DNA of 64,000 nt from NCBI GenBank assembly GCA_009699205.1, contig WLOP01000007.1, positions 1 through 64,000 on the forward strand, given 5' to 3'. Source of the stretch: Actinomycetota bacterium (lineage in GTDB: Bacteria > Actinomycetota > Actinomycetes > Nanopelagicales > Nanopelagicaceae). The translations under genes and the position numbers were made by a program. This document shows positions 46,616-58,282 of this stretch, piece by piece (position 1 is the first letter of the stretch; each line of letters starts with the position of its first letter). The notes under the pieces were generated by a model that saw only the letters and a list, made by a program, of their open reading frames with translations, made no database searches and was not told where the DNA came from.

Positions 46616-48586
46616 ATGAGTGGAAGCGCCATGAAGAGTGGAATCGATAAGAGCCATATTGACTCGCAATTTCGCCCCCAGGATGATCTCTTCCGCTTTA
46701 TGAATGGCGTGTGGTTGGCAACCTCTGAGATTCCTGCAGATCGAGCAGCCGATGGTGCCTTCTATTGGTTACGAGATCAATCAGAGAAGCAGGTTCGAGA
46801 GATTATTGAAAGCACCGCTAGCGCACCTGCAGAAGCGGGAAGTGTTGCTCGCAAAATCGGTGACCTCTATCGCTCATTTATGGATGAAGCTCGGGCGCAA
46901 GAATTGGGCATCTCCCCCATCGCCTCAGATTTAAAGCTAGCGCAATCGATTTCTAACCGAGAAGAATTCCTCACAGTCTTAGGAACGTTAGAAGAGGCCG
47001 GGCTTGGTGGACTTTTCTACGGATATATCACGACAGATAATAAGAAATCCGATGAGAACATTCTCTACTTTGGACAATCTGGTCTCAGCCTGCCCGATGA
47101 GGCGTATTACCGAGAAGATGAATATGCCCCCATCCGTGAAGGCCTGCTTGCTCATATCGAAAAGATGTTCTCCTTAGCCAATCTTGAAAATGGGGCTTCG
47201 CTGGCCAAGCTAATTCTCGAGTTAGAGACCGAGTTGGCAAGCCACCATTGGGATCAAGTCCGAGATCGCGATGCAACCTTGACCTATAACAAATTTACCT
47301 TTGCACAATTGGCGGAAATTTCAGCGGGATTTGATTGGCAAGCGTGGAATTCTGGGGCGCAAGTTCCCACTCAGGTCATGGCCAATATCGTGGTGCGCCA
47401 ACCTTCATTTTTCACAGGGCTAGGGAAAATGCTCGCAGCCTTCGACCTCGACAAGTGGCGCGCATGGCTGACATGGCAAGTGCTCACCGGTTCGGCCTCC
47501 TATCTCAACTCAGAGCTAGTCAATGAGAATTTCAATTTTTATGGCACCACCCTTTCTGGAGTTCCACAATTAAAGGAGCGCTGGAAGCGAGGCGTGGGGT
47601 TGGTAGAAGGTTCCCTTGGCGAGGCAGTCGGTGAGCTCTATGTGGCAAAGCATTTCCCCCCTGCAGCAAAAGCCCGCATGGTGCAACTGGTTTCCAATCT
47701 CATCGAAGCATATCGAGTCGATATTCACGCTCTCGATTGGATGAGCGCCGATACCAAGGTTAAGGCGCTAGATAAACTCAACAAGTTCACGCCGAAAATT
47801 GGCTATCCAGATAAATGGCGTGATTACTCATCTTTGGCGATTTCTAGTGATGAGTTGATAACCAACCTCAAGGCGATTTCCCGCTTTGCTCGAGATTTTG
47901 AATATGCAAAAATCGGAAAGCCAGTTGATCGCAGCGAATGGTTTATGACCCCGCAGACCGTCAACGCTTATTACAACCCTGGCATGAACGAGATTGTTTT
48001 CCCTGCCGCTATTTTGCAGCCCCCTTTCTTTGATCTCGATTCCGATGATGCCGCTAACTACGGCGGAATCGGCGCAGTTATTGGCCACGAAATCGGCCAT
48101 GGCTTCGATGATCAAGGCGCAAAATATGATGGAGATGGCAACCTCAACGACTGGTGGAGCGATAGCGATCGAGTCGAGTTCGAAAAACGCTCCAAGAAAT
48201 TAATCGAGCAATACGATGCGCTCTCTCCAGAGGAAACTCCTGGATCACATGTAAATGGCGCTCTCACTATTGGTGAAAATATCGGAGACTTGGGCGGGCT
48301 TACTATCGCTCACAAAGCTTACGAAATTTCCCTAGGCGGTAAAGCTGCTCCAGAACTCGATGGCTTTAGCGGTTTCCAACGCCTCTTCTTGGGATGGGCT
48401 CAAGTGTGGCGCACCAAGATTCGCCCCGAAGAGACAAAACGTCGCTTGGCAACTGACCCACACTCACCTGCAGAATTTCGTTGCAACCAAGTAATAGCCA
48501 ACCTCAATGAATATTACGAAGCGTTCGACGTGAAAGAAGGCGACAAACTTTGGCGCGACCCGGCTGAGCGAGTGCGCATTTGGTAA
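46616..48586 (+). CDS. M13-family zinc metallopeptidase (PepO-like)
   Basis: This 656-residue oligopeptidase of the neprilysin family has the zinc site in VIGHEIGHGFDDQG (two His and the catalytic Glu), with the third ligand Glu in ENIGDLGGL. NAYYNPGMNEIVFPAAILQPPFF is the substrate-binding stretch of the family. The N-terminal M13_N domain spans about 20-390. There is no signal peptide or membrane anchor, unlike many relatives, so it likely degrades peptides in the cytoplasm or leaves by another route. The start is ATG at 46616; an in-frame Met five codons later is possible. It overlaps tgt by 7 bases. Confidence 0.92.
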   Translation: MSGSAMKSGIDKSHIDSQFRPQDDLFRFMNGVWLATSEIPADRAADGAFYWLRDQSEKQVREIIESTASAPAEAGSVARKIGDLYRSFMDEARAQELGISPIASDLKLAQSISNREEFLTVLGTLEEAGLGGLFYGYITTDNKKSDENILYFGQSGLSLPDEAYYREDEYAPIREGLLAHIEKMFSLANLENGASLAKLILELETELASHHWDQVRDRDATLTYNKFTFAQLAEISAGFDWQAWNSGAQVPTQVMANIVVRQPSFFTGLGKMLAAFDLDKWRAWLTWQVLTGSASYLNSELVNENFNFYGTTLSGVPQLKERWKRGVGLVEGSLGEAVGELYVAKHFPPAAKARMVQLVSNLIEAYRVDIHALDWMSADTKVKALDKLNKFTPKIGYPDKWRDYSSLAISSDELITNLKAISRFARDFEYAKIGKPVDRSEWFMTPQTVNAYYNPGMNEIVFPAAILQPPFFDLDSDDAANYGGIGAVIGHEIGHGFDDQGAKYDGDGNLNDWWSDSDRVEFEKRSKKLIEQYDALSPEETPGSHVNGALTIGENIGDLGGLTIAHKAYEISLGGKAAPELDGFSGFQRLFLGWAQVWRTKIRPEETKRRLATDPHSPAEFRCNQVIANLNEYYEAFDVKEGDKLWRDPAERVRIW

Positions 48587-49830
48587 AGAGTTCGTTCTCA
48601 TTCGACATTACCTCGGAGATATCCCCGGGTAATGGCGCACGAGCACGCACTGGCCGAATCACTACTCCTCATGGAGTTATTGAAACGCCAGCCTTTATAC
48701 CTGTAGGCACTAAGGCAACTGTTAAATCAGTTCTACCTGAATCTATGAAAGATCTTGGCGCGCAAGCAATATTGGCCAATGCCTACCATCTCTATTTACA
48801 GCCCGGTGCCGATATCTTGGAGGAAGCTGGCGGTCTTTCGACATTTATGAATTGGACTGGCCCCACTTTTACCGATAGCGGAGGATTTCAAGTTCTCTCA
48901 CTTGGCGTGGGGTTCAAGAAAGTATTGGCCATGGATGCAACAACATTTCGCCGCGATGATGTGATTGCTCATAATAAAGAACGGCTTGCCCACGTTGACG
49001 ACGATGGCGTGACCTTCAAATCTCACCTCGATGGATCGATGCATCGCTTCACCCCAGAGGTATCGATGCAGGTCCAACATAAAATCGGCGCTGACATCAT
49101 CTTCGCCTTCGATGAATGCACGACGCTCCATAACACTCGCGGCTATCAAGAGGGGGCGATAGAGCGCACATCAGCCTGGGCGACGCGATGTCTTGATGAA
49201 CATTACAAATTGACGCAAGAGCGCGTTAAAAGCCCATATCAGGCTCTTTTTGGGGTCATCCAGGGCGCGCAATACGAAGACTTGCGACGAATGGCAGCTA
49301 AAGATTTAGGTTTCAAACAATCATCAGGAATTTCATTTGATGGCTTCGGCATTGGCGGCGCGCTAGATAAAGGCGCCCTTGGGCAAATTGTGGGATGGGT
49401 CAACGAAGAGCTGCCCCGTGAAAAGCCCAAGCATCTACTTGGAATTGGTGCACCAGAGGACCTCTTCGTGGGGGTCGAAGCGGGTATCGATACTTTTGAC
49501 TGTGTTCTAGCTTCTCGAATCGCCCGTACATCTGCGGTATATACACGGACTGGGCGATTTAATATTTCCAATGCGACCTATAAACGTCAATTTGTACCGA
49601 TTGATGACAGTTGCGATTGCTATACCTGCACTCATTACACCAGGGCTTACCTGCACCATTTATTCCGCGGTAAAGAAATATTGGCCGCGACTTTGGCAAC
49701 GATTCATAATGAACGCTTTATCGTCGGCCTAGTAGATCAGATGCGCCACAGTCTTCGTGATGGAACATTTGTCGAACTTAAAGAAGAATTTATGGCTCAC
49801 TACACTTTTAAGCCAGTAGCCGGTCACTAA
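48580..49830 (+). CDS. tgt: queuine/preQ1 tRNA-guanine transglycosylase
   Basis: This 416-residue enzyme swaps guanine 34 of GUN-anticodon tRNAs for a queuosine precursor. Motifs include TPHGVIETPAFIPVGTKATVK, TDSGGFQVLSL, VIQGAQYEDLR, FDGFGIGG, and FDCV for the nucleophile Asp. The C-terminal zinc site CDCYTCTHYTRAYLHH is complete. The only plausible start near the conserved region is TTG at 48580, which overlaps the M13 gene by 7 bases. No other queuosine genes are in the window, so precursor salvage or synthesis must be encoded elsewhere. Confidence 0.92.
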   Translation: MVKSSFSFDITSEISPGNGARARTGRITTPHGVIETPAFIPVGTKATVKSVLPESMKDLGAQAILANAYHLYLQPGADILEEAGGLSTFMNWTGPTFTDSGGFQVLSLGVGFKKVLAMDATTFRRDDVIAHNKERLAHVDDDGVTFKSHLDGSMHRFTPEVSMQVQHKIGADIIFAFDECTTLHNTRGYQEGAIERTSAWATRCLDEHYKLTQERVKSPYQALFGVIQGAQYEDLRRMAAKDLGFKQSSGISFDGFGIGGALDKGALGQIVGWVNEELPREKPKHLLGIGAPEDLFVGVEAGIDTFDCVLASRIARTSAVYTRTGRFNISNATYKRQFVPIDDSCDCYTCTHYTRAYLHHLFRGKEILAATLATIHNERFIVGLVDQMRHSLRDGTFVELKEEFMAHYTFKPVAGH

Positions 49831-49836
49831 GATTTC

Positions 49837-51369
49837 TTAAGGCGCAATAGCTAACGTAATCGTCCTTGTAACTGGAGCATAGGTAACTGCACTATCTGCC
49901 GGACTGTCACCATACTCAACGATATAGCCCATGTAATGGTCTTCCCAACCGTTTTCAGAGAAGTTATTCCAAAGGCCGTTATCTCCTGCCAGCATTTGTA
50001 AGGCGGGCTCGTTAAAAGCTCCGCAGTCGGAACCGTAACAATTAGGTTCGTTTCCATTCCAAGCAGCATACGTTGCCGATGCAGAGTAATTGGAAAACAG
50101 AACGTTGTATTCGGGAGCGCGATCATCTGCCCAGACCCAACTACCTTGACTGCTTCGATCGCTACCTCCTAGCCATACTTGCTGGCCGCCGACCTTTTGG
50201 TTGATATAGGCATTTTCCTCCGCAGTGGTTACGGTAGCAAAGTAACCACAGAGTCCATTGAATGAATATGGACATGAATTCCGAGATGAATTAAGGCCAG
50301 TTGAAATTATATCTCCACGTAAATTGCCAGAGTATGAAATCGAAGAACCAGTGATTGCATTAAAGGCACCCAACCAAGTGACTGAATCTTCAACCCACTG
50401 GTAATAATGGCCGTTCTCTGGGTTAAAGGCGATGTTGGCATCAGATGATGACCCGGTATCAGAAACCGTTGTAGCAATTGTTGGCGATCCAGAACAACCA
50501 GTAGGGTCATACATCATTGAATCGAGAGCTTGATTTATCGCAGTAGGTGAACCTACAAATCCAATTTCGGTTGCACTCAGACCAAGTGGATCTTGGTAGC
50601 CAAGGACAGTACTTAATCCTGGAATTGCATCATCGATAAATAAGAGGCCGCACGAAGCTACTGCCACAATGCGCACATCATTTCTGTAACCCGAAATCTC
50701 GAGTATGTCTTGAGAAGCGGACGTAAGGGCAAGATTTACATTGAGAAGTGAATTGGTGATTGGGACGTCTCCGCCATCGCCACCTAAGGAAGTTGCTCCA
50801 CCGACATTTACTCTCGTTTCTAAAGTCATTTTATAGACAGAGTCAGCCGTTGCTGCGGAGTGCAAAATAGTCAAAGTGAAACCTGTTGCCGACACATCAG
50901 AAGTTGAAAAAGCCCCGCCAGATGCTGGTTTAGTGAAAGCTGACGCACTGCCGACGCCATCGGCAACTGTGAAGTAGACGTAAGGAGTGTCTTGGGTTCC
51001 GCGTGAATCGAGATTGAGTTTGGTGTTACTGCTCTCGCCATAAAATGAAAATATGAAGTCGTTTCCAGAACATGCTGCGGGTATACCTGCAACCGTGACG
51101 CTTGATAGATAGAAGGATCCATCTCCTTCAACATTTGTAAAGGATGAATGTGGAGTAATCGTCAAGGTTTCGCCTTCGGAGCAAGAAACAGTTTGAGCAA
51201 CGCCTTGGCCGAATTCCACTGGTCCAGAGTTAATATTTATATTCGCTGCCAGAGTTGCACCTAGGCCAATGAGGGCGGCGAGAAAACTACATCCAAGCAG
51301 GACTTTAATTGACTTCTGATTGATTGGATGAAACTTCTTTCTAGAAGTTAGGTCGAGTATTGTTTTCAT
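49837..51369 (-). CDS. surface protein, LAANI/FGQGVAQT module plus C-type lectin domain
   Basis: The protein has 510 residues. The N-terminal export segment ends GATLAANI, then INSGPVEFGQGVAQT and the family beta domain with CSEGETLTITP, AACSGNDF and FYGESSNTK. A middle region (about 190-290) is followed by a C-type-lectin-like domain (about 310-495). Its telltale order is GHYYQWVEDSVTW, FATVTTAEENAYI, VWLGGSD, GSWVWADD, WNGNEPNC and LWNNFSENGW, ending in the YIVEYG strand. It may bind glycans or proteins at the cell surface. It starts 8 bases after the stop of the neighbouring family member, so the two form an operon. Confidence 0.75.
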   Translation of the reverse strand: MKTILDLTSRKKFHPINQKSIKVLLGCSFLAALIGLGATLAANININSGPVEFGQGVAQTVSCSEGETLTITPHSSFTNVEGDGSFYLSSVTVAGIPAACSGNDFIFSFYGESSNTKLNLDSRGTQDTPYVYFTVADGVGSASAFTKPASGGAFSTSDVSATGFTLTILHSAATADSVYKMTLETRVNVGGATSLGGDGGDVPITNSLLNVNLALTSASQDILEISGYRNDVRIVAVASCGLLFIDDAIPGLSTVLGYQDPLGLSATEIGFVGSPTAINQALDSMMYDPTGCSGSPTIATTVSDTGSSSDANIAFNPENGHYYQWVEDSVTWLGAFNAITGSSISYSGNLRGDIISTGLNSSRNSCPYSFNGLCGYFATVTTAEENAYINQKVGGQQVWLGGSDRSSQGSWVWADDRAPEYNVLFSNYSASATYAAWNGNEPNCYGSDCGAFNEPALQMLAGDNGLWNNFSENGWEDHYMGYIVEYGDSPADSAVTYAPVTRTITLAIAP

Positions 51370-51377
51370 AGGTGCAT

Positions 51378-52832
51378 CTACCCAAACGCCCTGATTGGTC
51401 GAGTCTTAAAGCCCCAAGTGCGAACTTCGGGACTGCAGACCAAAGTGCTCCCAGGAGGAGTGCCATACCAACATTGGTAGGCCGTACTACTCACGTCGTA
51501 ATCTGAGGAACTCCAGTAATTCAATTGAGTGAATCCACCTATAGTCGCTCTTAAGGGATACATAAGTTCTAATTCATCCAACGATGGCGCAAACCAATCG
51601 GCAGTTGAGTTGGGGCTTACATATGCATCAGATGCTGGCCCGACACCGGCGCTGCAATTGTCGATGAGATTTTGAGTGTTGGTTGCGCCATCTCCGATAG
51701 CGATCAACATTGCGAAGGTATCGGTGTGGCCATCTTTTAACGTGCAGAAAATAGGAGTGTCAATGGCCGCGGGGGCTGCCTCTAAATAGGTCCAACCAGC
51801 ATATTCTGCAGCTGAATCCACGTAGAAAACTTTTCCTCCCCCTGGTCCCACGTCGCCGACAATGCACGTGCCGCCTTGCGCGCAACTTAATTCTGAGTTC
51901 ACCGTTACATACAGGTGCTCTGTTGAGGTAGTTCCATCTGCAGCAGTTACCGTGAAAGTAATTGTTCTGGTATCTCCAGGTGTAATTGATCCTGTCCCAC
52001 TAATGCCTGACACTACGGCGCCAGAATCGTTAGGTGTAGCTACCAAGGCAAGGGATGTTGCGTAGTCAACGGTCAGCGTTGATCCCACTGTTGTCGATTG
52101 TCCGTTTACTGTAAGCGTTGATAAAGAGGTGTCGGATGAAAGCAGAACTGGCGGGGCTACCGGCGCGGTTTCGCCAGTCTCGATTAGAATCTTGTAAATC
52201 TCGGTGGCATCTGGAATTGGGAAGTTCACATCTGGAGCGTCACTTCCATAGCAATCTGCACCTATTTGAACTGTGAAACTTCCATTTATTTCTGACGAAT
52301 TTCCTGTGGCATCACTTACGTCGTAATATGCATAGCTCCCCACTGTTGACGCAGCAAATGGTGTGTCAGTCCCGTCGTAATGAATAACGAGCTGAGTGCC
52401 GTACCCCACTTGCGCGGCAATGCTCTCGTTGTAGCAAGCGCCATAAAGAGTAAATGGTCGATCAGGATTTTCTGCATTGCTCTCGGGCAGGGCCTTGATA
52501 GTAAAGTCCACTCCGTTGCAACCTTCGGGAATATTGCTCACCGTAATTGAGGTCATGCGAAAACTTCCAGCACCAGACTCATTGAAAAAAGTTGATTGGG
52601 GGGTAATTGTTAAGGAAGGATTTGAGCCACCGCATGCAACAGTTTGACTAATCCCTTGCCCGAATTCCACTGGTCCAGAGTTAATATTTATATTCGCAGC
52701 AAGAGTCGAACTGAGCCCAATAGCGACTGCGAGAAATCCAATTCCTAGCGCGAACTTCTTGGATTTCTTCGACTTTTTGGAGTTAGCGGAGAAGTGAGAG
52801 TTATTGGATTTTTCAAAATCAAAAACAGACAT
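51378..52832 (-). CDS. surface protein, LAANI/FGQGVAQT module plus cadherin-like and Lcl/DUF1566-like domains
   Basis: The protein has 484 residues. A long Lys/Ser-rich N-terminus (KKSKKSKKF) precedes the hydrophobic segment ending SSTLAANI, then INSGPVEFGQGISQT. The family module runs to about residue 225 (PEGCNGVDF, YKILIETGE). A cadherin-like beta-sandwich repeat follows (about 230-320, LSTLTVNGQSTTVGSTLTVDY). The C-terminal domain (about 325-484) has GDVGPGGGKVFYVD, ADWFAPSLDEL and NYWSSSDYD, typical of the Lcl/DUF1566 domain seen in collagen-binding adhesins. It is the first gene of a two-gene operon with the lectin member. Adhesion is a reasonable guess. Confidence 0.75.
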   Translation of the reverse strand: MSVFDFEKSNNSHFSANSKKSKKSKKFALGIGFLAVAIGLSSTLAANININSGPVEFGQGISQTVACGGSNPSLTITPQSTFFNESGAGSFRMTSITVSNIPEGCNGVDFTIKALPESNAENPDRPFTLYGACYNESIAAQVGYGTQLVIHYDGTDTPFAASTVGSYAYYDVSDATGNSSEINGSFTVQIGADCYGSDAPDVNFPIPDATEIYKILIETGETAPVAPPVLLSSDTSLSTLTVNGQSTTVGSTLTVDYATSLALVATPNDSGAVVSGISGTGSITPGDTRTITFTVTAADGTTSTEHLYVTVNSELSCAQGGTCIVGDVGPGGGKVFYVDSAAEYAGWTYLEAAPAAIDTPIFCTLKDGHTDTFAMLIAIGDGATNTQNLIDNCSAGVGPASDAYVSPNSTADWFAPSLDELELMYPLRATIGGFTQLNYWSSSDYDVSSTAYQCWYGTPPGSTLVCSPEVRTWGFKTRPIRAFG

Positions 52833-52990: not shown

Positions 52991-53608
52991 ATGGGAACCG
53001 ATAGAGCTGGCTTGCGCCACATCGTGGCCATTACATCGGAATTGGCTCGCTCGTCGATTCATGGCCAAACAAGCCTTAATCGGACACTTGCACTTGCGTC
53101 CGAATTTGATTCGGAATTTCTCATTGCCGGTGAAAAAAGTTTTGTGACTGATTTCGCCAATGCAATTATTTGTAATGTGAACGATCCTAAAGATTTTGCA
53201 GAAGCGATTGTTGATCTTGATCTCCGCATTCACGCTATAGCAATTCACGATGCATGCAGGCCACTCACTCGCACCGAGCAAGTGAAAAACGCCATAGCTG
53301 CCTTTTCGAAAGATGTAGATGGTGTTCGGCCCACTATTGATTTCACCGAAACTTTAAAGTTCGTTGATAGCAATTCTGTGATCGAAGAAACCCTAGATCG
53401 TTCAAGTGTTAGACGCGTTTCAACTCCCGAAATTATCCGACTCTCTGCCATAGATATTAAAGGAGAAGACTCTGGTTGGTTTGTAACGCTGACTGCTAGC
53501 GCCAAACTTCTCGACATTCCAGGAGACCCAGAAGCTTTACGGATAAATAGCGCAGATGACATTGCTTTGCTTGAATCATTTGCACATTGGAGAAAGAGCG
53601 CCTCTTAG
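52991..53608 (+). CDS. degenerate IspD-like paralogue, probably not a cytidylyltransferase
   Basis: The protein has 205 residues. The overall order follows IspD, but key residues are changed. The CTP-binding glycine loop (LAAGxGxR in the neighbour) is replaced around residues 12-24 by ITSELARSSIHG. HDGARP has become HDACRP (86-91) and TPQ has become STPE (144-147). The C-terminal INSADDIALLESF still resembles the family. It therefore has the fold but lacks the usual nucleotide grip, and may be a regulatory or partner subunit or a drifting duplicate. It is convergent with the intact ispD, the two overlapping by 4 bases. Upstream 52833-52990 shows no clear element. Confidence 0.6.
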   Translation: MGTDRAGLRHIVAITSELARSSIHGQTSLNRTLALASEFDSEFLIAGEKSFVTDFANAIICNVNDPKDFAEAIVDLDLRIHAIAIHDACRPLTRTEQVKNAIAAFSKDVDGVRPTIDFTETLKFVDSNSVIEETLDRSSVRRVSTPEIIRLSAIDIKGEDSGWFVTLTASAKLLDIPGDPEALRINSADDIALLESFAHWRKSAS

Positions 53609-54303
53609 CCAAGCAAAAGTGTTTGAGCGATATGCAAATCTTCTGCGTAGGTGATTTTTATATTACTTGCTTCACCCTTGACGGCCACACTCTTGGTTTG
53701 AGGGTAATAACGCTCCATGCAAGCCGCTGTATCTGTTCCGACAAAGTCATCGCGCTTGGCTTGAAGGTATGCATCTAGAACTTCTTTGCCTCGAAAAGCT
53801 TGTGGAGTTTGAACTCGGACAAGTTTCCTTTCCGTTCGAATATCAATCTCACGCTGATCCACTGCGATAGCAGGTAGCGCTCCTCCATGCTCATGCGCAG
53901 TCGACGCCACGGTGTGAAAAAGCTCGCTGGAAGCTAATGGGCGCGCACCATCGTGAATAACAACCACATTTACACTGCCCTCTTTAATCGCTGATGCTAG
54001 GTATTCAAGTGCGTTGTACTCAGACTCATGGCGAGTTTTGCCGCCATCGACAAATTCAATCTCCAGCTCTGGAACTTCCTTATCCAAAAGCTCTATTGCA
54101 ATCTCTTTGTCGAGCGGATTAATGACCAAAATCGTCCGTGGATCATTGAAACTTTCCACAGCGTTTTTGAGCGATCGAGAAATCACTGCGGCACCATCTA
54201 ATTCAAGCCAAACTTTGTTGGTGCTGTGACCAAAGCGCGAACCTGTTCCGGCAGCAAGCAGAACAACTGCCACTCGCATTTGCTTATCCATGGGTGATGA
54301 CAT
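53605..54303 (-). CDS. ispD: 2-C-methyl-D-erythritol 4-phosphate cytidylyltransferase
   Basis: This 232-residue enzyme of the MEP isoprenoid pathway joins CTP and MEP to give CDP-methylerythritol. The nucleotide loop LAAGTGSRF (16-24, R23) and K30 are intact, followed by GGKTRHES, HDGARP (117-122), TPQ (166-168), TDTAACMER and NIKITYAEDL. Other sugar-alcohol cytidylyltransferases (TarI-like) share the fold, but the neighbour argues for MEP. The ATG shares one base with the stop of the upstream reductase-like gene (TAATG), indicating coupling. An internal Met at residue 5 or 9 could be the true start. Confidence 0.8.
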   Translation of the reverse strand: MSSPMDKQMRVAVVLLAAGTGSRFGHSTNKVWLELDGAAVISRSLKNAVESFNDPRTILVINPLDKEIAIELLDKEVPELEIEFVDGGKTRHESEYNALEYLASAIKEGSVNVVVIHDGARPLASSELFHTVASTAHEHGGALPAIAVDQREIDIRTERKLVRVQTPQAFRGKEVLDAYLQAKRDDFVGTDTAACMERYYPQTKSVAVKGEASNIKITYAEDLHIAQTLLLG

Positions 54304-55592
54304 TAGGCGTAAGTCAGACCCAATCTATCTTGGAGCCTACGCAAGATGACAATCTGACTTGCTTCGTCAAGGTCAACATCGTCATATGAGATGAACTCTC
54401 CGACTTTGATTTCTCTCTTAATTACCGCGTTTTGCATCAAGCCGATTGGTACTAAGTTTTCACGCTTGGCATCTGTTGCAATGTCGGCGTAGCCACGAAT
54501 CGTGTAACCACCGATGCCATCTATGACATCGCCAGGGTTGAGATCTTTCTTCGCCATTGAAACCACTTCAGCCTGCAAGCTAGGTGAGTAGAGCGATGCC
54601 TCGCGGTCGAGAACTGCTCGCGCAATTGAGAGCGGTGCTTCGACAGACGCTAAGTGAAATGGACGATAGAGAGCAAAGTAGGGGCCAGTGCCCATGCCTA
54701 GATAATGCATCTCCTCTTTGATGTAAGGAGTGTCTGTGCGAATAATGACAAAAACTCCAGGTGCTACATCGCCCGTGCAGTAATCAACAACGCCTGCACG
54801 ATCTAATACTCCCCCATCTTTTTCTAGGGCAAATACATCCTGCAAAGTCTTAATCGTCGCCGGCGGTCCATACATTCCACGCTTTGAAAGTTGGAGACCA
54901 GTTGTATTGGCAAGAGCTGCCATTTCAATCATTGTCTTGGAACCGTCGGTAAAGGAACAGAGCATCTTCGGGTTCATCTTCTTTTCTGTTGCACGCTCTC
55001 TGACTGTATCTGGCGTGCTCAAGGGCTCAAAAGGATTGTTTTTGCCTTTGCCAGCAGCAATAATTTCAAACTTCAAATCGCGAGCGAAATCGACAAGTAC
55101 TTTCGCTTCAATAGGTTCGTCCCCGTGGCATACGGTGTAAATAGCGCCATTTTTCTCGGCTGTTGCATGTAACAGAGGCCCAATTGTCACATCCATTTCA
55201 ACGTTCAAAACTGCGACATCCTTCTTGGCTTGCAGGCAACTGTAAGCAACGCGCGCACCAACGTCGGGAAGCCCAGTGGCCTCAACGACAATATCGAATG
55301 GGAGCTCTGCAATGAAATCTATTGTGGTTGTTCCTGCTGGCTTTCCCGCGAGGAGGGCTTGTGTAAGTTCAGTTTTATCATCGGATATTACGTAATCTGT
55401 TGATCCAATATCTGCAAATAAACTCTTGATACGCGCAACATCAACATCAACCACTAGGGCTAATTGCATTCCATCCATGCGCTCTACTTGGCAACCAAAG
55501 CCATGTCCCATCTGCCCGGCACCAACAATGGCAACACGAATATCGTGGCCTCTTCGTTGAGCAAGGTCTAAGAGTTTGCCTGAATAAGCCAT
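54303..55592 (-). CDS. homoserine-dehydrogenase-like oxidoreductase, probable DXR-like reductoisomerase (DRL)
   Basis: The protein has 429 residues. An N-terminal NAD(P)-binding Rossmann domain (AIVGAGQMG, 22-29) is followed by a central domain with VEATGLPDVGA, CHGDEP and KGKNNPFEP. A C-terminal SAF-like domain is at about 370-429 (IKVGEFISYDDVDLD). This layout is that of the homoserine-dehydrogenase-like family to which DRL belongs. DRL is the alternative enzyme, first described in Brucella, that converts deoxyxylulose 5-phosphate to MEP in place of DXR. Direct coupling to ispD, the next pathway step, supports that role here. A different sugar-phosphate or amino-acid dehydrogenase cannot be excluded by sequence alone. 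Confidence 0.6.
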   Translation of the reverse strand: MAYSGKLLDLAQRRGHDIRVAIVGAGQMGHGFGCQVERMDGMQLALVVDVDVARIKSLFADIGSTDYVISDDKTELTQALLAGKPAGTTTIDFIAELPFDIVVEATGLPDVGARVAYSCLQAKKDVAVLNVEMDVTIGPLLHATAEKNGAIYTVCHGDEPIEAKVLVDFARDLKFEIIAAGKGKNNPFEPLSTPDTVRERATEKKMNPKMLCSFTDGSKTMIEMAALANTTGLQLSKRGMYGPPATIKTLQDVFALEKDGGVLDRAGVVDYCTGDVAPGVFVIIRTDTPYIKEEMHYLGMGTGPYFALYRPFHLASVEAPLSIARAVLDREASLYSPSLQAEVVSMAKKDLNPGDVIDGIGGYTIRGYADIATDAKRENLVPIGLMQNAVIKREIKVGEFISYDDVDLDEASQIVILRRLQDRLGLTYA

Positions 55593-55681: not shown

Positions 55682-58282
55682 CTAGATGATAAAGAGGGAC
55701 TTAGCCTTATCTACTGCGCTGTCTCGGCCATCTACTTCCAATTTTCGATAAATATGTCGCAAATGCGTTTTCATTGTATTTCCCGAAATATGCAAAGAAG
55801 CGCCTATGGCTCCTATGGACAGACCTGTTGCTAGATTTCTCAGAACTTCCAATTCTCTGCTTGTGAGCGCTTCAACTAACCCCGCTTTAAAATCTTTACT
55901 TGTCTGCAGTTCGCCCGTCGCCATGCGCGCGAGTGATTCCATAAACACTGTGGAATTTATTGTCGCTAATTTTATTATCAAATTTAGAACTCGTGGCCCT
56001 TGAACTAATAAAGTCCTACGTGCACCGTGCTCAGCAGCGATATCAATCGCTCTGCGTAAATGTTTCAAAGCTACCGATTCTGAATCAAGGTTTATAAATG
56101 TGTCATACAAGGCAAGGTAAAGATCTTGCCTTGGAGTACCTGACGCAAATCCCGAGTCTTGCGGTCGAGATTTCAGCGATTCATTCTGAAACTCCAAACT
56201 TACACGAATTTGCTCTGAAAAACGTGTCTTTGGAATGCGCCCTAACAATATTTGGCAACGCGCTTTATCGCCGACCCGATATCTTAATAACAGTTCGTCT
56301 TTATCTAAAATTGCATCGATATCAGGACAGAGAATCAGTCTCTCAGCAATCGTGCGGGAGGTCTTGAGAATTTCAAAAGCGTCTTTCACTCGGCCAAACG
56401 CAAGTTCAAGATCAGAGATCTTTCCTTGTACAAAGAAATACCAGCTCCACTGTTTCCATTTCTTTGCTAGTTCACTTAATTCTATAAGTTTGGCAAGTGA
56501 AGATTCTCGATTTAAGAATTCGCCTTCACAATGTGCCACTACATATAACGCATCAAAAGGTCCCACTACACCAACAAAACCTTGCTCTCGGGCAATTGCA
56601 ATCGCTTTGAGAGCCAAATCATGCGCCTCAAAATAACGTCCTTGCTCGAAAAGTACTAGTGACTGCATGCAAGCAAGGTGGTAAGTAGATTCGATATTCC
56701 CTACACTTACAGCTAATAGATTTGCCGCGGAATTCGCTTCAATTAAAGATTCGCAATCATTTACTATGAATGCTTTGCCTGCAAGTAATCGTAATAGTGG
56801 CAACTTATCTTCAACGATGAGCGCAATCGGTGTGGGCGTAACCTCTAAAGTCATTTTTACATCATTTTCAAGCTCTGCAAATCTACCTAAGGAGAAATTT
56901 TTGTATGCTCGTGACATTGATGTAACTTGGAGGACAAATTCTCGCATGTGAGTGGAATCAGCGGCTCTGATCATCTCGCTGATGAGCGTATCTACTTGGT
57001 CGAATTCTGTATTCGCTAGGTGCCCTGAAAGTTCGGCTGAGCTTTGGAAAATTTGTGCTTCTAGCGTTGGGCCGCCCAGATAGTGGCTCCATTTCAAAAG
57101 CTGGTCGCCAAGCCCTGTTGCTGCCATTTTTCGTGCGTTTTCAGTAAAGATACTGACAATCAAGTCCCTGTCACCTGATTGATGAGCTTGACCCATTGCT
57201 TGTGACGTTTTGCCAAATTTTACTAATATATATGCCGCTTTGCGATGTAGTTGTGATTTCTCCTCTATCCGAGTCGAAAGATCAACGAGTAAGATTTCAC
57301 GAATGAGAGGATTAATTCGATAACTTCTTGCTGGATTAGACGTTCTCGTTAAGAATAGCCCGCCTTTAGTAAGTCGCAAGAGGAACTGAAAAGAATCATT
57401 GGTTTCTAAAACTAAATCAGCAATCTCTGGATCTATCTCTTCAAAAATTGATAACTTGGTTAATTTTACCCGATCCTCAAGTTCAAGTGAGATTAAGGAT
57501 TCATTCGCCAAATACCTCAGTGGGTCTGATCGGTTTGTGAAGTTTTCAGTCAATTCACTTATTTGCGCACCACGTGACAAATTACGAACAAGCAGCGAGG
57601 CCGCGGCGGGCCATCCATGAGTTGTGGCCATAATTGCTTGCACATAATCCTCTTCTTTTGAAACGCCATTGAAACTGAGTAATGAAGAGACTTCAACATT
57701 GCTGAAGACTAAATCTTGTCCTGTGATGAGCGATAATTGGTTTGCGTTAGAATGTTGCGAAAAAGATGTCATTGGTGCGGTGCGCCGAACGATGACAACC
57801 TTGCAAGATGGTGGCATTGAATCGATAAAAAGTTGCCCAATTGTTTGCACATCACCGACAAGTAGATGTGCGTCATCGACAACACATATGAGTTTTGTTT
57901 TCAGCGAAAGTAGTTCGTTACTACCCCTACGAACAACTTCTTCCAGGGAAAGATCGGGAGACTCTTCATACCAAGGGGCATAGCCAGGAATCACATTTCT
58001 GACCGCCTGCACCATGTGATTGGCAATGTCTCCCACACTATCGTTTTGATTGGCTGTAAACCAGATAACAGTTGCATTAGATTTACTCGCCCACTCAACA
58101 ACCAAAGATGTCTTCCCGTATCCAGCCGGCGCGACAAGAAGGGCCACCCCAGATTCAATAGCCCCGAAGCGGTCAAATAAAGATTCTCGCGAGAGAAAAT
58201 CAGTGGGTGACATTGGAGGCAAGGTGCGCGAAAGGGTGACTCGATCGACCAAAGGTCGAGAAGTAATCGCTCGCGTAGTCAT
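55682..58282 (-). CDS. large ATP-binding LuxR (MalT/LAL-type) regulator
   Basis: This 866-residue signal-transducing transcription activator has an N-terminal STAND/AAA-like ATPase with Walker A APAGYGKT (51-58) and Walker B near LICVVDDAHLL. A long helical, TPR-like middle (about 370-780) probably senses an inducer. The LuxR helix-turn-helix is at the C-terminus (LTSRELEVLRNLATGLSIGAIG, HISGNTMKTHLRHIYRKL). The architecture is that of MalT, which binds a maltodextrin, but the middle region gives no ligand clue. The nearest downstream genes are DRL-ispD in the same direction, 90 bases away; control of distant genes is equally possible. Confidence 0.85.
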   Translation of the reverse strand: MTTRAITSRPLVDRVTLSRTLPPMSPTDFLSRESLFDRFGAIESGVALLVAPAGYGKTSLVVEWASKSNATVIWFTANQNDSVGDIANHMVQAVRNVIPGYAPWYEESPDLSLEEVVRRGSNELLSLKTKLICVVDDAHLLVGDVQTIGQLFIDSMPPSCKVVIVRRTAPMTSFSQHSNANQLSLITGQDLVFSNVEVSSLLSFNGVSKEEDYVQAIMATTHGWPAAASLLVRNLSRGAQISELTENFTNRSDPLRYLANESLISLELEDRVKLTKLSIFEEIDPEIADLVLETNDSFQFLLRLTKGGLFLTRTSNPARSYRINPLIREILLVDLSTRIEEKSQLHRKAAYILVKFGKTSQAMGQAHQSGDRDLIVSIFTENARKMAATGLGDQLLKWSHYLGGPTLEAQIFQSSAELSGHLANTEFDQVDTLISEMIRAADSTHMREFVLQVTSMSRAYKNFSLGRFAELENDVKMTLEVTPTPIALIVEDKLPLLRLLAGKAFIVNDCESLIEANSAANLLAVSVGNIESTYHLACMQSLVLFEQGRYFEAHDLALKAIAIAREQGFVGVVGPFDALYVVAHCEGEFLNRESSLAKLIELSELAKKWKQWSWYFFVQGKISDLELAFGRVKDAFEILKTSRTIAERLILCPDIDAILDKDELLLRYRVGDKARCQILLGRIPKTRFSEQIRVSLEFQNESLKSRPQDSGFASGTPRQDLYLALYDTFINLDSESVALKHLRRAIDIAAEHGARRTLLVQGPRVLNLIIKLATINSTVFMESLARMATGELQTSKDFKAGLVEALTSRELEVLRNLATGLSIGAIGASLHISGNTMKTHLRHIYRKLEVDGRDSAVDKAKSLFII

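Follow-up and report, generated by a model that had tools for sequence, protein, structure and literature searches.

A DRL-type DXP reductoisomerase predicted to stand in for DXR, and a non-canonical IspD, in a bacterium of the Nanopelagicales

Which enzyme carries out the second step of the MEP pathway in an actinobacterium whose ispD is joined to a gene for a homoserine-dehydrogenase-like protein, and is that ispD itself an ordinary one? The window analyzed here is a 64,000-nucleotide stretch of contig WLOP01000007.1 from a member of the Nanopelagicaceae. The first-pass annotation of this DNA had placed a probable DRL-type DXP reductoisomerase with a SAF-like C-terminus at 54303-55592, and these coordinates are right. 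The gene is on the minus strand, where the reading frame is open from 55592 to 54303, while the same frame on the plus strand is broken by many stops. The TAATG junction with ispD is also found as described. The features discussed below are:

54303..55592, minus strand: DRL (DXR-II) gene, 429 aa, a predicted NAD(P)H-dependent DXP reductoisomerase, type II
54301..54305, minus strand: TAATG junction, one base being common to the DRL stop codon and the IspD start codon
53605..54303, minus strand: IspD-II, 232 aa, PF01128 match of 135 bits
52991..53608, plus strand: c0, a convergent IspD-derived ORF, 205 aa, with a weak IspD match of 50.4 bits

Taken as a whole, we consider it quite likely that DRL is the sole DXP reductoisomerase of this bacterium, that it forms a replacement unit with IspD-II, and that the working IspD is a heterodimer. 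DRL would then take over from the missing DXR and convert DXP to MEP.

The 429-aa product contains NAD_binding_3, DRL_cat and SAF domains, that is, the Rossmann N-domain, DRL catalytic domain and SAF C-domain of a DXR-II. The DRL_cat match (PF21135) scores 211.9 bits, the cut-off being 27. Among solved structures only the relatives 3upy and 3upl were found, both titled just 'Oxidoreductase' in the search, and the match to 3upy covers the full length (positions 5-426 of 429 aa, E=5e-97). 3upy is the DXR-II of Brucella abortus (PMC3847144), to which the protein is 41% identical. The residues of the DRLs were compared using the published Brucella numbering, which is reproduced by the alignment. 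Lys191, Lys193 and Thr229, which bind substrate and fosmidomycin, and the dimer residue Arg320 correspond to Lys182, Lys184, Thr220 and Arg310 of the protein studied here. All DRLs examined from the order have these four residues as well as Gly121, Ala210, Phe291, Leu324 and Arg429, except that one partial sequence stops short of the Arg429 position. The Val351 position is variable. His250, which is kept in most DXR-II, is replaced by Tyr here and by Asn or Phe in a few DRLs of the order; this Tyr and the variable Val351 position count against the explanation given above. By homology and key residues the product is a DXR-II/DRL, as had been proposed.

The DXR-II-like oxidoreductases DLO1 and DLO2 share superfamily and fold with DRL, and the DLO members that were tried did not complement a dxr mutant (PMC3847144). 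In the phylogeny that the first-pass annotation had called for, the DRLs of the order form one clade on the DXR-II side, together with proteins from Brucella, Priestia, Listeria and rhizobia, and the protein does not group with DLO. The support for the exact sister group is weak. The nearest DRLs outside the order by identity (about 50%) are also actinobacterial. Five DLO-like relatives, from Agrobacterium, Halorussus, Deinococcus, Acuticoccus and Comamonas, lack the Lys193 and Thr229 that DRL keeps; the Deinococcus protein still falls on the DXR-II side of the tree. The survey published in 2013 found DXR-II only in Alphaproteobacteria, Firmicutes, Chloroflexi, Betaproteobacteria and Fusobacteria (PMC3847144), while the present gene sits in an actinobacterium.

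A search of the rest of the genome (1.42 Mb, 17 contigs, 96% complete) using the Dxr family TIGR00243 gave no match even at E=1. The same search matched Dxr in 13 of 14 control genomes, nine of them above the family cut-off. Nor was a canonical dxr found in any of the 17 sampled genomes of the genus, even though one of these is 100% complete in three contigs. Among 151 genomes of the order DRL was found in 27, DXR in 120 and both in only one (G051), where DXR is located at a contig edge. This mutual exclusion has a Fisher p of 4e-23, or 3e-11 outside the genus, neither value being corrected for phylogeny, and the genomes with DRL and without DXR belong to four genera. Five genomes of the order have neither gene; judging by the other genes and the contig ends of these five, sequence may be missing. 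The completeness and contig number would allow dxr to lie in an assembly gap, with DRL redundant to a DXR that escaped detection. Given its absence from all 17 genomes of the genus, including the complete one, and its recovery by the identical search in 120 of 151 genomes of the order, this is extremely improbable.

DXS, IspE, IspF and IspG are all encoded in the genome. Since the genome has DXS and the later MEP genes tested (IspD through IspG) but no DXR, DXP needs a reductoisomerase, and a non-canonical second step of the MEP pathway, as first suggested, is well supported by the missing dxr and the conserved DXR-II residues. DRL is very probably the working enzyme of this step, its activity being predicted from sequence. 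The closest known parallel is the DXR-II of B. abortus, with which it shares full-length homology, domain order, the residues Lys191, Lys193, Thr229 and Arg320, and the replacement of DXR in a genome that keeps the other tested MEP genes. The Brucella enzyme differs in its His250, in sequence (41% identity) and in that the DRL described here is joined to a non-canonical ispD. The first-pass annotation had also presumed an altered response to fosmidomycin. A lower sensitivity of DXR-II compared with DXR-I has been reported (PMC3847144), but the remark carries little weight since fosmidomycin inhibits DRL too, and the resistance of Brucella has been linked to its lack of GlpT (PMC3424233).

That DRL is coupled to ispD holds as far as adjacency goes; wherever the two genes of a DRL genome could be assigned to a single contig, IspD follows DRL on the same strand. 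It is nevertheless an understatement, because this IspD, too, departs from the canonical form and probably depends on a second ORF. IspD-II scores 147.7 bits with the IspD family model, below the NCBIfam cut-off of 181.3. Its nucleotide loop is intact (Arg23, Lys30) and Lys216 is kept, while the segment containing E. coli Thr140 is missing. Of the E. coli residues, Arg20, Lys27, Arg85, Ser88, Asp106, Arg109, Thr189 and Lys213 are retained, positions 137-143 are missing in 28 of 28 sequences, and Arg157 is not conserved. IspD-II thus has the Arg20, Lys27, Lys213 and nucleotide loop of a canonical IspD, but the arm bearing Thr140 and Arg157 is not part of its chain. In E. coli IspD, Thr140 and Arg157 reach over the dimer interface. 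Thr140 touches the methylerythritol part of the product, and a T141E mutant of the equivalent residue in the Francisella enzyme is inactive (PMC3111433).

The arm residues missing from IspD-II are found in c0, whose 3' end overlaps that of IspD-II. Here Thr121, Lys123, Asp136 and Arg137 correspond to E. coli Thr140, Lys142, Asp156 and Arg157; the first is kept in 27 of 28 sequences and the other three in all 28. Positions 13-21 are missing from c0 in 28 of 28, Lys27 is absent, and Arg occupies the Lys213 position. The AlphaFold (AF2) models of IspD-II and c0 are confident (pLDDT 89 and 90), and two long adjacent strands are seen at the position of the arm in c0, with none such in IspD-II. The closest IspD structures are mycobacterial for c0 and from B. 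subtilis for IspD-II. Apart from these two ORFs the genome gave one more match to the IspD profile, covering profile positions 3-128 in a 482-aa frame on another contig, which is read as GlmU judged by the length of the frame; no other full-length IspD was found in the genome.

Because the arm has been lost from IspD-II and the nucleotide loop from c0, the most economical reading makes the working IspD a heterodimer, whose single composite active site would draw on both proteins; we favor this reading without being firm about it. It would share the cytidylyltransferase fold with canonical homodimeric IspD and bifunctional IspDF, and IspD-II keeps the nucleotide loop, Arg109 and Lys213 of these enzymes; the difference is that arm residues and nucleotide loop are here on two separate ORFs. 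Alternatively, c0 could be no more than what is left of the old ispD as it decays, with IspD-II functioning alone as a homodimer. Such a decay would agree with the position of c0 at the old ispD site in two genomes (see below), with its divergence (34-43% identity among genera) and with its lost nucleotide loop. Still, the c0 ORF is intact in 28 genomes, it has moved along with DRL and IspD in the genus, and residues of the very arm that IspD-II has lost are among its most conserved ones, making it rather unlikely that c0 is a relic. If the heterodimer exists, it offers a test case for how an essential homodimer turns into a heterodimer through complementary loss.

The genomic context indicates how the pair may have come about. 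In the DXR genomes whose loci were read, an IspDF fusion of about 380 aa, or a full IspD beside IspF, is found between CarD and CysS. The DRL genomes encode IspD-II next to DRL, c0, and IspF as a protein of its own. The locus in G004 and G096 runs CarD, c0, IspD-II, DRL, IspF and CysS, with IspD-II and DRL reversed, and it follows that an insertion split the old ispDF locus. The genome studied here has CarD-IspF-CysS on contig 11, with c0, IspD-II and DRL together in the window. An incoming DRL cluster would thus have replaced dxr and ispDF at the CarD-ispDF-cysS locus, and the old host IspD would persist as the convergent ORF at 52991-53608, its nucleotide loop lost and its substrate-binding arm kept. 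The canonical arm residues are likewise missing from the cluster-borne IspDs of Pseudonocardiales, Acidimicrobiia and Ktedonobacter-type loci, and IspD-II therefore probably arrived already different.

The proposed source of DRL and the armless IspD-II is a DRL gene cluster of a type that other phyla also have. About 20 of the relatives sampled carry DRL within a conserved unit encoding HPr, PDH-type E1 alpha and beta, an E2-like protein, PTS enzyme I, a SorC regulator, GutM, glucitol-type EIIC, EIIB/C, EIIA, DRL, IspD-II and a 103-aa Cys-rich protein. Some clusters are cut by contig ends, G043 has no EII genes and G099 has no enzyme I at the cluster; the PTS phosphorylation motifs are intact in the clusters compared. 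Outside the order, DRL is accompanied by E1 alpha, E1 beta and E2, and in some cases E3, in Priestia, Sinorhizobium, Shinella, Aminobacter, Terrarubrum and Pseudoroseomonas, several of which add a GUT-PTS or a sugar ABC transporter with a kinase. In Listeria and Ligilactobacillus it is a GUT-PTS that accompanies DRL, and the DRL of Phyllobacterium is found with neither E1/E2 nor GUT-PTS. Of the 49 loci outside the order that span at least 14 kb, 42 have a GUT-PTS, and 37 of those 42 also encode E1 alpha and beta. The five DLO-like relatives differ in showing no PTS/E1 neighborhood. The components resemble those of acetoin or pyruvate dehydrogenase (E1-E2-E3) and glucitol-type PTS operons, except that they are joined to DRL.

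Canonical DXR is found beside DRL in 29 of 40 genomes checked, mostly outside the order, and DRL is therefore usually not needed for isoprenoids there. With the GUT-PTS in 42 of the 49 loci and E1 in 37, this gives about an even chance that the DRL clusters are catabolic in origin. In such a route, where the substrate is deduced from the genes, a polyol may be taken up and phosphorylated to MEP, DRL may run in reverse to give DXP, and an acetoin-dehydrogenase-like cleavage may yield acetyl-CoA and GAP. In the open literature searched, whose coverage is incomplete, no paper was found on such a pathway, connecting DRL or methylerythritol with a glucitol PTS, catabolism or acetoin dehydrogenase. 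A catabolic DRL would, if true, explain two points left open by the DXR-II survey, namely the retention of a second DXR alongside DXR-I and the absence of both MEP and MVA genes from some carriers of DXR-II (PMC3847144).

The PTS/E1/E2 genes are absent from the DRL neighborhood of the genome studied here. The occurrence of DRL in other phyla within a PTS and E1/E2/E3 cluster, with DXR also present in 29 of 40 genomes, raises the question whether its DRL could be a leftover catabolic polyol-phosphate dehydrogenase, MEP coming from elsewhere. This is most unlikely in a genome having DXS and all MEP genes tested between IspD and IspG, no DXR and none of the PTS/E1/E2 genes by DRL, and several lineages without the rest of the cluster have each retained DRL-IspD. 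Similarly improbable is that the DRL-IspD pair, like TarJ-TarI, makes a CDP-activated sugar alcohol for a cell-surface polymer rather than isoprenoids. IspD-II does lack the canonical substrate-arm residues, related IspD-II are found in DRL clusters of actinobacteria that have a canonical DXR, and two adjacent ORFs in the window are surface-protein-like. But IspD-II scores only 77.2 bits with the ribitol-5-P model against 147.7 with that for IspD, the missing arm residues are kept by c0, and the genome encodes the remaining tested MEP genes and no other full-length IspD.

The first step of the pathway is also affected among the relatives. DXS is missing in all ten cluster-bearing genomes outside the genus (G044, G050, G051, G082, G088, G099, G108, G109, G114 and G142), and is present in both cluster-free DRL genomes there. 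Within the genus it is intact in every cluster-free DRL genome, including that studied here, and the cluster-bearing ones mostly have a DXS without the segment at about 190-240. This segment is taken to be a flexible linker, and decay of DXS in G007, G023, G039, G085 and G112 was rejected, the gap being confined to about E. coli positions 190-240 with the readable catalytic residues intact. Judging by the pattern in the ten relatives, DXP or MEP is probably supplied by the cluster. As a general substitute for DXS, a split DXS-like protein of about 340 aa (G027, G034, G043, G088 and G133) was considered and dismissed; it occurs both with and without DXR.

The E2-like protein bears on how the cluster would do this. 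In the E2s examined from the family, Leu replaces the catalytic His of the HRxxDG motif, unlike in acetoin and pyruvate dehydrogenase operons. This is not a property of actinobacterial clusters in general, since nearly all other E2s keep the His, including those of the more distant relatives L187 and L188 (L193 is an exception). The Leu suggests that acetyl-CoA formation has been abandoned and that E1 may make DXP; the E2 could possibly have a purely structural role, like an E3-binding protein. E. coli mutants of aceE, encoding PDH E1, form enough DXP to stand in for DXS, and the references of the same study list a paper on 1-deoxyketose formation by pyruvate and acetoin dehydrogenases (PMC3424233). 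Uptake of methylerythritol or deoxyxylulose by the PTS is an equal rival to DXP formation by E1; the DXS-loss pattern fits both alike because the two gene sets are kept together.

The cluster-free genomes are scattered over several positions of the DRL tree, among cluster-bearing ones, which suggests repeated loss of PTS and E1 with DRL-IspD always kept. The present genome would have lost the PTS/E1/E2 part in this manner after the replacement, retaining its normal DXS. These observations may be combined, tentatively and at somewhat less than even probability, in a scenario where a methylerythritol-catabolic cluster (GUT-PTS or ABC transporter with kinase, DRL, E1/E2/E3 and SorC) was captured by the isoprenoid pathway of the Nanopelagicales. 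DXR and IspDF would have been lost, as well as the E2 His and, in about ten sampled genomes, DXS, whose role would be taken by E1 or by PTS uptake, and IspD would have become a heterodimer of cluster-borne and native subunits. The close relatives seem to present a natural replacement series in which DXS, DXR and IspD, three consecutive MEP steps, are exchanged, and this bears on the action to be expected of MEP inhibitors in a group of freshwater bacteria.

Some further observations were made on the clusters and on the window. The 103-aa protein (c8; 16739-17050 in L095) has two CxxC motifs and no Pfam match, and its gene follows IspD-II in the PTS-bearing clusters of several actinobacterial groups. 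Homologues are found in L191, L193-L195, L197, L203 and L204, and c8 is missing wherever the PTS genes are missing, except in G043. IspD-II genes near DRL in L224, L225, L227, L236, L239 and L250, from Ktedonobacter-type Chloroflexi, Acidimicrobiia and Nitriliruptorales, encode no canonical arm residues; these armless proteins possibly make up a separate cytidylyltransferase subfamily. A record titled as a Bifidobacterium breve MAG (L182) contains a DRL cluster typical of the order (68% identity), and its title is probably wrong.

In the window, genes for an M13 peptidase and a queuine tRNA-ribosyltransferase are found at 46616-49830 on the plus strand. Their homology groups adjoin the DRL region in several genomes of the genus, marking the relocation site. 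The two adjacent ORFs mentioned above, at 49837-51369 and 51378-52832 on the minus strand, encode probable surface proteins (510 and 484 aa), of which one contains a C-type lectin domain and the other weakly resembles a collagen-like adhesin. Upstream of DRL, at 55682-58282 on the minus strand, is a gene for an 866-aa LuxR/MalT-type regulator, which could regulate the DRL operon, since it adjoins DRL in G027 too.
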